A stretch of 37,247 bases of DNA from Deltaproteobacteria bacterium (lineage in GTDB: Bacteria > Myxococcota_A > Polyangia > DRWM01), in assembly GCA_019310245.1 (NCBI GenBank), contig JAFDER010000002.1:1-37247 (forward strand), given 5' to 3'. Positions 7,351-26,300 of the stretch are shown here, piece after piece. Under the pieces are notes generated by a model. It saw nothing but the letters and a program-made list of their open reading frames with translations. It was not told the origin of the DNA and searched no databases. The position numbers and the translations under genes were made by a program. How positions within the stretch are numbered: position 1 is the stretch's first letter; each line of letters begins with the position of its first letter.

Positions 7351-7367
7351 GCGAAGTCCTGGATGGA

Positions 7368-7961
7368 TCAGGTCTTGAGGAGTGCCTCGAGCGTGGACCT
7401 GAGCTCCTTCATCGAGGACTTGGCGATCCATCCGTCCACGCCCATCTTGCCGGAGTCTCCCGGGCCCGGCTGCCTGTCGGAGCACAGGATGACCCGGCAG
7501 TTCTCGGTCGCCGTGAAGCCGCGCAGGGACTGGACGATTCCTCCGGCACCCTGGGGCACGGCATCCGCATCCAGCACGATCACATCCGGAGGCACCTGGC
7601 CGGCCCGGAGACCGAGATCCATCATGCTCTCGAAGACCTCCACCTCCATGTCCGGCCCGCAGGCGCGCCGGACCGCTCCGGAGAGCGGGGTGTCCAAGAC
7701 CAGCGCGTACACGGCGGGCCTCCTGGGCAGCAGCTCGTCGGGAACGGGGTAGCTGAAGCGCCTGAGAAAGTCGATCACGTCGGCCCTCCTGAAGCGCAGG
7801 TGTCGGCCCGGCGTTCGAAAATGCTCGATCTGCTGGCGATCGACCCAGTTATGGATGGTCTTGAGGTCGACCTTGCAAAAGCAAGCCACCTCCGGGGCCG
7901 TGAACAGATCATCGTCAGACATGGGAAAGGCCTTCTGATCCTTGGGCTTCTTCTTTCTCAT
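7368..7961 (-). CDS. Excisionase/MerR-type HTH DNA-binding domain fused to a response-regulator-like receiver domain
   Basis: 'LFTAPEVACFCKVDLKTIHNWVDRQQIEHFRTPGRHLRFRRADVIDFLR' HTH_17-type; C-terminal 'PPDVIVLDADAVPQGAGG...VDGWIAKSSMKEL' receiver-like. SD GGAGG upstream of ATG 7961. Confidence 0.82.
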   Translation of the reverse strand: MRKKKPKDQKAFPMSDDDLFTAPEVACFCKVDLKTIHNWVDRQQIEHFRTPGRHLRFRRADVIDFLRRFSYPVPDELLPRRPAVYALVLDTPLSGAVRRACGPDMEVEVFESMMDLGLRAGQVPPDVIVLDADAVPQGAGGIVQSLRGFTATENCRVILCSDRQPGPGDSGKMGVDGWIAKSSMKELRSTLEALLKT

Positions 7962-9470: not shown

Positions 9471-9695
9471 CTACTTCGAGGAACAGCTCGAGCACGCGCT
9501 CGAGGACGAGGAGCAGGACGTGCACGCCGAGGGGCTGCCGGTGCCGCCCGAGCCCGACCAGGAAAACGTGCTCATGAGCCTGTGTGTGCGGGAATCGCTG
9601 CAGGAGGGACAAGGGACCGGATCCTCGCGGTTTCCAAGCACAATCTCCTCGAAACGCTCCCCGCAACCATCACACTGAAACTCGTAGATCGGCAT
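9471..9695 (-). CDS. FmdB-family zinc-ribbon protein with Ser/Cys-rich tail
   Basis: MPIYEFQCDGCGERFEEIVLGNREDPVPCPSCSDSRTHRLMSTFSWSGSGG...CTSCSSSSSACSSCSSK. Confidence 0.93.
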   Translation of the reverse strand: MPIYEFQCDGCGERFEEIVLGNREDPVPCPSCSDSRTHRLMSTFSWSGSGGTGSPSACTSCSSSSSACSSCSSK

Positions 9696-9702
9696 CCTGG
9701 GT

Positions 9703-9732
9703 CCAATATGACGCTGAGGTGGAAAGTGTCAA
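9703..9732 (-). promoter_or_regulatory. Putative fmdB promoter (TTGACA-N18-TATTGG; alternative CATATT with N16)
   Basis: Reverse strand TTGACA 9732-9727; TATTGG 9708-9703; ATG 9695 lies 7 nt downstream. Confidence 0.45.
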
Positions 9733-9747
9733 CCCCCACCTTGACAC
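9726..9747. promoter_or_regulatory. Perfect inverted repeat GTGTCAA-N8-TTGACAC spanning the two divergent -35 boxes of fmdB and lon
   Basis: GTGTCAA 9726-9732, CCCCCACC, TTGACAC 9741-9747. Confidence 0.8.
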
Positions 9748-9769
9748 GGCGATCTCTCGTCCATATTTT
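9741..9769 (+). promoter_or_regulatory. Sigma70-like promoter for lon (TTGACA-N17-TATTTT)
   Basis: TTGACA 9741-9746, TATTTT 9764-9769, lon ATG at 9788. Confidence 0.65.
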
Positions 9770-9787
9770 ATCAGATATCCGGACGCA

Positions 9788-12202
9788 ATGATCATGCCGA
9801 AGACAAAGAAGGAACCTGAGAACGCGGAAGAGCGCCTGCCCATCCTGCCGCTGCGCAACTCCGTGCTCTTTCCACACGCCATCGTCCCGATCGACGTGGG
9901 CCGGGCCAAGAGCGTCAAGCTCATCGAGGAGCTGAGCAAGCAGGAGTCCCAGGTCCTGGGCGTGCTGAGTCAGCGCGACCCGGAGACCAGCGATCCGGCC
10001 TGGAACGAGATGTACCCCGTGGGTACCGTGGCGCGGGTCCTGAAGGTCATCAAGCTCGACCGCGGCGGCTACAGGGTTGTGATCCACGGGATCGTCCGCT
10101 TCTCGACAGTCCGGACGGTGACCACGGATCCTTACCACCAGGCCGTGATCCAGAGGCTGCAGGACAGCCAGTCGCGCGACATCGAGATCGACGCGCTGCT
10201 GGGGTCCATCTTCGACACCCTCGAGCAGGTGGTGGCGCTGCTGCCGAACTTCCCGAGGGACATCGTCGAGAGGCTCCACTCGAGCAAGGACCCCTCCCTG
10301 ATCTGCGACCTGGTGGCCGCGAACATCCCGATCTCCGTCGAGGAGAGGCAGAACATCCTCGAGATGCTGGACATCAAGCCGAGGCTGCGCCTCACCCTCC
10401 AGTTCCTCATGCGCCAGCTGGAGGTGCTGAAGGTGAAGAAGGAGATCTCCTCCATGGTCCAGGAGGAGATGGGCAAGAGCCAGCGCGAGTACTTCCTCAG
10501 ACAGCAGATGAAGGCCATCCGGGACGAGCTCGGAGAGAGCGAGGAGGACGAGGACGACCTGGAGGAGCTGCGACAGAAGATCACGGACGCCGGCCTGCCG
10601 GAAGAGGTGGACAAGGTCGCCCGCAAGCAACTCTCACGCCTCAAGCAGATGCAGCCGTCGAGCGCGGAGTACACCGTGGTGCGCATCTACCTCGACTGGC
10701 TTCTCGAGCTTCCCTGGACGCACGCCACGCAGGACCATCTCAACGTGGCCGAGGCGAGGAAGATCCTCGAGGAGGATCACTACAACCTCAAGAAGGTCCA
10801 GAAGCGCATCCTCGAGTACCTCGCCGTGCGAAAGCTCAAGGAGGACAAGAAGGGACCCATCCTGTGCTTCGTCGGACCGCCGGGAGTGGGAAAGACGAGC
10901 CTGGGCAAGAGCATCGCGCGCGCCATGGGCCGCAACTTCATGCGCATCAGCCTCGGTGGCGTCCGGGACGAGGCGGAGATCCGCGGGCACCGGCGCACGT
11001 ACGTCGGGGCGCTGCCGGGCCGCATCATCCAGTGCATGAAGAAGGCCGGCTCGATCAACCCCGTGTTCATGCTCGACGAGGTCGACAAGCTGGGCACGGA
11101 CTTCAGGGGTGATCCCAGCTCGGCATTGCTCGAGGTGCTCGACCCGGAGCAAAATGACAGCTTCTCCGACCACTACGTGGAGGTGCCGTACGATCTGTCG
11201 CGCGTGCTGTTCATCGGTACGGCCAACGTCCAGGACACGATCCCGCCTCCCCTCCTCGACAGGATGGAGGTCATCGAGATCCCGGGCTACACACGCGAAG
11301 AGAAGAAGAAGATCGCGCGCCAGTTCCTCATCCCCAAGCAGCTGGAGGAACACGGTCTTCACGACTACCGCTTCGAGTGGACCGAAGGTGCGCTGGATCT
11401 CGTCGTCGACTCCTACACGCGCGAATCGGGCGTGCGCAACCTCGAGCGCGAGATCGCCTCGATCTGCCGCCACATCGCCGTCCTCGTTGCCGAGGACGGG
11501 AAGATCCCCGAGACGGTGGACGAGGCGCTCGTCGAGAAGGTGCTCGGCCCCGTCAAGTACTACTCCGAGGTGGCGGAGATGAAGGGTGAGCCCGGCGTGG
11601 CCACCGGCCTGGCCTGGACGCCCACGGGAGGCGACATCCTCTTCATCGAGGCGACGAAGATGCTCGGCAAGGCCAAGCTCAACCTCACGGGCCAGCTCGG
11701 CGACGTCATGAAGGAGAGCGCCCAGGCGGCGCTGAGCTACGTACACGCGAACGCGAAGGAGCTGGGATTCGACGACGAGGTGTTCGAGAAGAACGAATTC
11801 CACATCCACGTCCCGGCAGGGGCGATTCCCAAGGACGGGCCGTCGGCCGGCATCACCATGTACGTGGCCATCGCGTCCCTGCTCATGGGCAGGTCCGTGC
11901 GTCCTGACGTGGCCATGACGGGAGAGATCACGCTCCGTGGGATGGTCCTGCAGGTGGGAGGCATCAAGGAGAAGGTGCTCGCAGCGCACCGCGCGGGCAT
12001 CAAGCGCATCGTCATGCCCAAGCGCAACGAGAAGGACCTCCAGGAGATCCCGAAGGAGATCCGCGAGGAGATGAGCTTCTCCTTCATCAAGCACATGAGC
12101 GACGTCCTCGAGTTCGTTCTCGTGGACGAGGGCGAGGAGAGGATTCCCGGCACCACACCGAGCAAGGACTCCCTGCCACCTCGACCCCAGCCCGCCATCT
12201 AG
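9788..12202 (+). CDS. lon: ATP-dependent protease La (Lon, LonA type)
   Basis: LPILPLRNSVLFPHAIVPIDVG; FVGPPGVGKTSLGKSIARAMGR; RGHRRTYVGALPGRIIQ; DGPSAGITMYVAIASLLMGRSVRPDVAMTGEITLRG. Confidence 0.98.
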   Translation: MIMPKTKKEPENAEERLPILPLRNSVLFPHAIVPIDVGRAKSVKLIEELSKQESQVLGVLSQRDPETSDPAWNEMYPVGTVARVLKVIKLDRGGYRVVIHGIVRFSTVRTVTTDPYHQAVIQRLQDSQSRDIEIDALLGSIFDTLEQVVALLPNFPRDIVERLHSSKDPSLICDLVAANIPISVEERQNILEMLDIKPRLRLTLQFLMRQLEVLKVKKEISSMVQEEMGKSQREYFLRQQMKAIRDELGESEEDEDDLEELRQKITDAGLPEEVDKVARKQLSRLKQMQPSSAEYTVVRIYLDWLLELPWTHATQDHLNVAEARKILEEDHYNLKKVQKRILEYLAVRKLKEDKKGPILCFVGPPGVGKTSLGKSIARAMGRNFMRISLGGVRDEAEIRGHRRTYVGALPGRIIQCMKKAGSINPVFMLDEVDKLGTDFRGDPSSALLEVLDPEQNDSFSDHYVEVPYDLSRVLFIGTANVQDTIPPPLLDRMEVIEIPGYTREEKKKIARQFLIPKQLEEHGLHDYRFEWTEGALDLVVDSYTRESGVRNLEREIASICRHIAVLVAEDGKIPETVDEALVEKVLGPVKYYSEVAEMKGEPGVATGLAWTPTGGDILFIEATKMLGKAKLNLTGQLGDVMKESAQAALSYVHANAKELGFDDEVFEKNEFHIHVPAGAIPKDGPSAGITMYVAIASLLMGRSVRPDVAMTGEITLRGMVLQVGGIKEKVLAAHRAGIKRIVMPKRNEKDLQEIPKEIREEMSFSFIKHMSDVLEFVLVDEGEERIPGTTPSKDSLPPRPQPAI

Positions 12203-23367: not shown

Positions 23368-26300
23368 TCAGCGGCGCTTCTTCTTCGGTGGACGCGGCGG
23401 TGCAGAGAGCTTCTGCCCGCGCTTGCGGACTGGCGGCGGCGGCGGCGGCAGGGAATCTCCCGAGTCCCTGGACTTCTCCGCCTTCGGCGGCAGGGGTGGC
23501 GGCTGGGAGGGGGCGTGATCGCCCCCGGCCTCGGCGAACTCGTCCACGGCGTATTCCTCCTCCAGCATGTCGCTGAGGGAATCATCGTCGAGAACGTAGG
23601 CGGCGCTCTCGGGCACTGCGGCGGCCTCGTCGTCGGGAGGCGTGTGCTCGTCCTCCTCGATCTCCGGAACCGCGGCCTGCTCCGGCTCGGGCTCCGTGGC
23701 GTCGGACCCCTCCGCTTCCTCCAGGTCCTGCAGGGCCTCGTCCCGCGGCTCCTCAGCCGCACCCTCACCGGGAGGCAGTGCTTCCTCATCCGCATCGGCC
23801 CCGTCATCTTCCTCCCCGGCCTCCTGTACGTCCTCCCCGGCCTCCTCCGCGTCCTCCCCGGCCTCTTCGAGGCCGATCTGATCGCCTGCTGCCTGCACCT
23901 CGGGCGGGACGTCGTCCGCTTCACCGGCAGACGGCTCCGGCTCGTCGTCCCCGTCCTCGCGGCTCATTGCGAGCAGCTGGGAGACCTTCTGCAGGGGCAC
24001 CTCGCCGGTGTCCACGGCATCCTCCCAGTCGGGCAGCTCGTCGCTCTCGGCCGGAGGCGCGGCAGGGGCCTTGATGTCGGACAGGTCCTCCGCGAGCAGG
24101 GAGCGCCGGAGCTCCTCCACGTCCACCTCTTCCTCTTCCTCCTCCTCGTCGTCCCCGCCAAGGCGAGCGGCCAGCCCGAGCTTCGATTTCTGGAGCCTCT
24201 CGACGGACTCGAGGGCCTCCTCGTCCTCGGGCAGGTCCTTGAGGATCTTCTTGTAGGCATCCAGGGCCTCGAACCGGTTGCCGAGGTCCTGGTCCCAGAT
24301 GTGGGCGGTCTCGCGCTGAAGCGCGATCCTCTGCTCCTCGTCCTCGACGCGCTCGATGGCGGACTCGAGGATCACGAGCAGGTCGTTGTACCGTCCCACG
24401 CTGCGGTAGAACTCGGACAGCTTCCTGAAGGCCGTGGGATGCTCCGGATTCATCTGGATGAGCTGCCAGTAGTGGTCCGCGGCCTCGTCCGGCCTGCTCA
24501 GCTCCTCGACGAGGATGCGGGCGCGCCTGTCGTGGATGATCTCGGCGGCCTCCATCTTGAGCGAGAGCCTGAGGATGCCGCCGTAGTGACCCGCGAGCGC
24601 CTCCCAGAAGTTCTCCTTCTCTGCCAGCACCTCGAGCCTCTCGAGGATCACGAGGTCGGACGGGCTGAGCCTGTGAGCCTCCCTCAGGGCGTTGAACGCC
24701 GAGGCGGCATCGTTGAGCCCGTTGCCGTAGATGCGGGCGATCTGCCTGAGGAACAGGACGCGCACGGGATCGGAGGCCTCGTAGCTCTCGGAATGGGCCT
24801 GGTAGGTCTTCAGCAGCCAGGAGTAGACGTACCCCTTGTCCCTCTCCGACAGGTTCTCCTCCACGCCTTGAGCCGCATCGAAGATCAGCCGGCCGAACCG
24901 CTCGTTGGCCGGATCGACCTCGACGGCATCCTGGATGATCTTGATGGCGCCGTCCACGTTCTGCAGGTGCTCGGCCATGATGCGGGCCATCCGGAGCTTG
25001 ATCTCGATGCGCTCCTCGTTGTCGCTCGATGAACGGAACTTCTTCTCGAACGCACCGAGGAGCTCCTGGTACTCGCCGGCCTCGAGCGCGGCCTCGTGGA
25101 AGTGCTCGAACAGCTCCGCGTCGTCGGGCATCTCCTCCACGGCCCTGAGCAGCGGCATCACCGCTCCACGCGCGAATCCACCCTGCTTCCAGACGACGTC
25201 GGAGAACCTCTTGAGGAGCATGGTGCGCCCCTCCTCGTCGTCGATGCCGCGCGAGATCCTCTCGTAGATGCCTCCGAGCCGCTCCCAGTCCTTGCACCCC
25301 AGCGCCGCCCTGTCGGCATCGTCAAGGAGCGTGACCTCGTCCGGATCCGCGATGACGGCCTGATTGACCACGTACAGGGCTCGCGTGTGGTCCTCGAGCT
25401 TGTCGAAGTACAGCTCCGCAGCCTGGCGCCACTTCTTGACCTGCTCCTCCTTGTCCTCCTCCCTGGGAGCGAGGTCCTCGTACATGGCCGCGAGGTCACC
25501 CCACTGCTCGAGCCTGTGCGCAGCCTCCTCGAGCACCGTCATCACGTCCTCGTCGACGGTGATGCGGCTGAAGATCTCCTTGAACCAGCTCCATGCACGC
25601 GATCCGTCCTCGAGCTCCACCTCGCAGACCTTCGCTCCCTTGAGCAGGAGGCCCAGCTTCTCGGCCTCGTTCTCCTCGGCCTTGGTCTTGGAGCGGATGA
25701 GCCTCAGGAGCTTCTCCCACTCGCCTTCCTTCTCGTACAGCTCCTCGAGCGCACTGATGGCCTGGAAGTCTCCCGGCGCCGAGGCAAGCACCTTCTCGTA
25801 GGCCGCGATCGCCTTGAGCTGGTCCTCGAGCTTCTCCTGGTACCAGGAAGCGAGCTGGAACAGCAGGGGCCTCTCCTCATCGGGCTCGATCGGCAGGCGC
25901 AGCTCCCTCTCCAGTGTCTCGGCCGCGAGCCGGAAGTCCTCGATGTCGGCGTGGATGACGCGCAGCAGGGTGAGGGTGCCCCGATCCTCGGGAAGGTCCT
26001 CGAGGATCTCGTCGAGAGCCTCGACGGCGTTCTTCGGCTCGTGGAGCCTCTCGTAGAGCACGTCTGCGAGCTTTCTGAGGATCTCTGCCTTCTCCTCCGG
26101 GCTCTCCGCCAGGTTCGCCTGCCGCCTCAGGTTGTCCTTGAGCTCGGGCCAGCGCTCCTTCTCCTCGTCCCACGCGGCGAGGGTCCTGAGCGCCTCGATG
26201 TCGTCGCCGCCCTCGAGCAGCTTGCGCCACACCTCCATCGCCTCGTCGCGGCGATCGACCTGCTCGCTGCTCAGCAGCAGTCCCAGCCTTCTCATGAAGA

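Follow-up and report, generated by a model that had tools for sequence, protein, structure and literature searches.

The gap between fmdB and lon

The window analysed here, a stretch of 37,247 nucleotides from a metagenome bin (70% complete, 679 contigs), carries a divergent gene pair coding for an FmdB-family zinc-ribbon protein and the Lon protease. The gap between them (9696–9787, 92 bp) runs exactly from the ATG of fmdB (9695, minus strand) to that of lon (9788, plus strand). The features of the locus are as follows:

9471..9695, minus strand: fmdB-family zinc-ribbon protein, 74 aa (NCBIfam TIGR02605, 60.8 bits, cut-off 31.3; Pfam PF09723, 51.7 bits)
9705..9710, minus strand: -10 box CATATT of the predicted fmdB promoter, spacer 16, with a start at ~9698 expected from the spacing (consensus scan)
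9727..9732, minus strand: -35 box TTGACA of the predicted fmdB promoter, core of the left arm (sequence, consensus scan; TTGACA-16-TAnnnT at many fmdB loci of the class)
9726..9747, no strand: perfect 7+7 inverted repeat GTGTCAA-N8-TTGACAC, made of the two -35 boxes and one outer pair
9741..9746, plus strand: -35 box TTGACA of the predicted lon promoter, core of the right arm (sequence, consensus scan; TTGACA-16/17-TAnnnT at relatives' lon loci)
9764..9769, plus strand: -10 box TATTTT of the predicted lon promoter, spacer 17, with a start at ~9775–9777 expected from the spacing (consensus scan)
9788..12202, plus strand: lon, ATP-dependent endopeptidase La, 804 aa (NCBIfam TIGR00763, 997 bits, cut-off 608; Pfam Lon domains)

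Direct reading confirmed the inverted repeat of the original prediction, GTGTCAA-CCCCCACC-TTGACAC, in both sequence and coordinates. Its arms occupy 9726–9732 and 9741–9747 around an 8-bp spacer (9733–9740), and the symmetry stops after the seventh pair, where 9725 is A and 9748 is G. Both predicted starts are downstream of the repeat, which is thus part of neither transcript, and an Rfam search for RNA structures matched no family. Directly after the fmdB stop codon and before murG (9393–8212), the minus strand carries a terminator-like hairpin of eight pairs, several of them G-T, followed by a T run (9455–9437). Elsewhere in the genome, a second fmdB paralogue (contig C195, 24057–24251) lies ~0.9 kb from a sigma-70-family gene (25175–25942).

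Both arms are perfect TTGACA hexamers belonging to predicted sigma-70 promoters, each of which matches the -35/-10 consensus at 10 of 12 positions; the fmdB -10 box, CATATT, lacks the first T of the consensus. A consensus scan of 901 bp returned these two promoters, compared with a shuffle mean of 0.1. When the 92-bp gap was dinucleotide-shuffled 5,000 times, a promoter at a threshold of at least 10/12 appeared on either strand in 1.5% and on both strands in none (0/5,000). The pair of -35 boxes therefore exceeds chance. No significance attaches to the palindrome as such: perfect inverted repeats of 6+6 are present in 27% of the shuffled gaps and those of 7+7 (spacer 3–20) in 7.5%, and the window as a whole holds 104 repeats of the 7+7 type with spacers in this range. 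Two divergent consensus -35 boxes generate a 6+6 repeat automatically, so that the seventh pair alone is extra. Given the base that follows TTGACA at 77 promoter-like sites of the genome (G 27, C 21, T 16, A 13), a match at this seventh pair has a probability of ~0.27.

Besides its imperfect -10 box, one further point tells against the predicted fmdB promoter: the transcript would be nearly leaderless, with ~3 nt between its start (~9698) and the ATG, unlike that of relatives' fmdB genes, where the leader is longer and includes a ribosome site of the GGAGG type. Such short leaders do not appear unusual in this genome, since the start codon lies within 10 nt of the -10 box in 5 of 19 sampled TTGACA promoters with a clear downstream gene.

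The promoter motif in this genome and at relatives' loci

We then examined the distribution of these promoter elements using pattern searches with reversed-pattern controls. Genome-wide, TTGACA-N15-19-TANNNT was found 78 times, compared with four matches for the control, and the sites include those upstream of dnaK, dnaG and a groES copy, among others. Judged by this distribution, the motif is the housekeeping promoter of the genome.

For comparison with relatives, we assembled 79 other lon loci from the same order, the class and named GTDB genomes such as Polyangium and Sorangium. The closest relatives compared belong to the same order but to other families; there are four such genomes, with Lon proteins 57–58% identical to that of the window. 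At none of the 79 loci does fmdB lie beside lon within the retrieved flanks, which vary in length, and the palindrome was absent from the 200 bp upstream of lon at all other loci with enough upstream sequence. The individual promoter types do recur. Relatives in the class whose Lon proteins are 59–61% identical carry TTGACA-17-TAnnnT upstream of lon (loci L107, L112, L117 and L120), or the same boxes with a 16-bp spacer (L106), with no fmdB nearby. Likewise, TTGACA-16-TAnnnT precedes fmdB at seven loci of the class (L017, L018, L022, L023, L024, L026 and L033) and at a paralogue in the same genome (L192), and none of these loci emerged as a lon neighbour. The spacers in the window, 17 bp for lon and 16 bp for fmdB, fit those of the relatives, and each arm of the repeat can thus be explained separately. 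Gene order around lon varies within the class and, as far as can be seen from these loci, the lon-fmdB pairing is specific to this lineage. The original prediction had named a lack of conservation of the palindrome in relatives as refuting it; at the loci compared, the palindrome is indeed not conserved, whereas the individual promoter types are. The proposal that the arms are two divergent -35 boxes is borne out by the promoter scan, the shuffles, the genome-wide motif and the occurrence of the same boxes at relatives' separate lon and fmdB genes.

Polymerase occupancy at the predicted back-to-back promoters

Taken together, the gap very probably holds two divergent housekeeping (sigma-70/SigA-type) promoters in a compact arrangement specific to this lineage, and the inverted repeat would be the product of their two -35 boxes and one chance pair. 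In this arrangement, lon and fmdB would each bring their own TTGACA-type promoter, as their orthologues do elsewhere, and a juxtaposition peculiar to the lineage would place two consensus -35 boxes back to back, 8 bp apart. The locus resembles other divergent sigma-70 promoter pairs, in which two TTGACA/TATAAT-type promoters on opposite strands share a short gap between divergent genes and the polymerase sites overlap. It displays the same elements, namely near-consensus hexamers 16–18 bp apart on each strand that conform to the genome's housekeeping motif, with the divergent genes just downstream. We see no material difference from such pairs; here, the -35 boxes are both perfect and so closely spaced that they read as a palindrome.

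RNA polymerase holoenzyme covers DNA from about -55 to +20. With predicted starts at ~9776 and ~9698, the two footprints would overlap by ~30 bp, and simultaneous occupancy is therefore unlikely. This part of the original prediction, that two polymerases could not sit there together, is geometrically plausible. Both promoters are probably constitutive, and two holoenzymes would keep one another off the upstream DNA that the promoters share, which might couple lon and fmdB weakly if either promoter became very strong. The further suggestion, that the two genes might be expressed in a mutually exclusive manner, does not follow from the overlap. In E. coli, basal transcription at five bidirectional promoters is too low for competition, which appears only when one direction is strongly activated (PMC12825309). 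At lon/fmdB, competition would likewise matter only at high promoter activity. The bidirectional promoters described by Warman and Grainger have in common with the lon/fmdB gap that transcription is divergent and that polymerase can bind in either orientation (PMC12825309, PMC10268837). However, they possess a tighter geometry, built on a shared pseudo-symmetrical -10 element with starts 7–25 bp, mostly 18 bp, apart (PMC10268837), whereas ~78 bp separates the predicted lon and fmdB starts, with the -10 boxes on the outside and 53 bp from each other. We therefore do not count the locus as a member of the shared -10 class.

A stronger version of the occupancy argument would make the overlapping polymerase sites a physiologically relevant occlusion switch that sets lon and fmdB reciprocally, for example with lon rising and fmdB falling under stress. 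The overlap of the predicted footprints is consistent with such a switch, as is the competition seen at E. coli bidirectional promoters once one direction is activated. Nevertheless, at basal activity none of the five tested E. coli promoters showed competition (PMC12825309), the lon-fmdB arrangement is not conserved, and a literature search found neither a functional link between FmdB and Lon nor a paper on the pairing of their genes. On balance, we consider a switch of this kind unlikely.

Heat-shock and operator readings of the repeat

The lon promoter could also be read as a sigma-32 (RpoH) heat-shock promoter (CTTGAc...tCCATaT), which would leave the left arm of the repeat incidental. Indeed, CTTGACAcggcgatctctcgTCCATAT fits the order and spacing of the elements of E. 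coli groE, and the genome encodes an RpoH-like sigma factor with the RpoH box QRKLFFNL (contig C223, 2909–3712, locus L177; NF005143, 277 bits, cut-off 241). When tested against CTTGAA plus CCCCATNT, however, the lon promoter fits in spacing and matches CCCCATNT at only 6 of 8 positions in the -10 element. Genome-wide, CTTGA-N15-17-CCATNT occurs 25 times against 9 for the control, and CTTGACA...CCATAT precedes rplS, TetR, LysM and yceD genes, which are not heat-shock genes, whereas the TTGACA-type promoters of dnaK and groES lack CCATNT. In view of these comparisons, we consider a sigma-32 promoter unlikely and prefer the housekeeping assignment for lon. About ten genes of the sigma-70 family are present in the genome, the RpoH-like gene among them, yet dnaK, groES and lon all show TTGACA-type promoters.

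The original prediction also raised the possibility that a dimeric repressor binds the repeat as its operator and silences both genes. The repeat's perfect 7+7 symmetry and the fact that it is the sole perfect copy of GTGTCAA-N8-TTGACAC in the genome would suit such a role, as would the recurrence of the N8 spacing. With at most one mismatch, TGTCAA-N8-TTGACA was found four times in the genome (control 0) and eight times in the order (control 4). The -35 boxes already account for the symmetry, however, and what remains beyond them is one pair, expected by chance in ~27%. The order-wide excess is small when set beside its controls (for the N9 spacing, five against four), and we do not find in these counts convincing evidence of an operator family. 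A genome-wide search for the repeat that allowed mismatches gave 39 matches against 19 for the control, mostly codon-like GTCAAG/CTTGAC. No repressor regulon emerged from the mismatch search of the genome or from the N8/N9 search of the order, no regulator gene lies adjacent to the pair, and a literature match to GTGTCAA that at first seemed promising turned out to be a primer.

The same back-to-back boxes were found elsewhere. TGTCAA-N1-30-TTGACA occurs at five sites in the genome (control 0), with spacers of 12 (contig C182), 9 (C235), 8 (C533, the lon/fmdB gap), 8 (C581) and 24 bp (C591). Of the remaining four, three are flanked by divergent genes which, by our reading of their translations, encode a response regulator and an unknown protein, an FKBP isomerase and an unknown protein, and RnfA-like and NifU-like proteins; the C235 site falls in a gap without a clear left-hand gene. 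Similar TTGACA pairs are present in relatives of the order, for example upstream of dapF. The N8 spacing is shared by two of the five pairs in the genome and by three in the order, two of which are one orthologous site. This is slightly above the prediction for even spacing, and the genes beside these other exact N8 sites are unrelated. In view of such pairs at unrelated genes, and of the absence of the palindrome at the other lon genes examined, the repressor proposal is not supported, and we regard an operator at lon/fmdB as very unlikely. A longer perfect palindrome of 11+11, GTCTGTCAAGT-TTCCG-ACTTGACAGAC, overlaps a TTGACA-16-TACCCT promoter on contig C235 (~7367–7393; locus L133, 1498–1524); it makes a stronger candidate for an operator than the lon/fmdB repeat does.

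The CIRCE operator of HrcA, TTAGCACTC-N9-GAGTGCTAA, and the HAIR operator of HspR, CTTGAGT-N7-ACTCAAG, are likewise inverted repeats near heat-shock genes. Compared with these consensus sequences, the lon/fmdB repeat differs in sequence, arm length and spacer, and direct reading of 9696–9787 agrees with the original prediction in finding neither. Upstream of fmdB in several relatives of the class (L017, L026, L028, L029, L030 and L033), TTAGCACTC or TTGGCACTCTC, resembling one CIRCE half, stands shortly before TTGACA; no second half was seen there.

Finally, an assembly artefact of the metagenome bin at the fmdB-lon junction, which the lack of an fmdB neighbour at the other lon loci might suggest, is very unlikely, given a gap of normal size, an intact promoter for each gene, two open frames and the variable gene order around lon in the class.

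It is improbable that the repeat is a true two-gene control element, whether one that makes Lon and FmdB reciprocal under stress by polymerase exclusion or one at which a dimeric regulator binds a TGTCAA-N8-TTGACA operator over the -35 boxes at several loci of the order. If the gap is instead a compact pair of housekeeping promoters, it illustrates how two consensus -35 boxes alone can produce a conspicuous palindrome between divergent genes. In genomes of this kind, a palindrome that sits midway between divergent TTGACA boxes would need a further test before being labelled an operator. For measuring how two strong back-to-back promoters compete, the site itself would be a clean natural construct.
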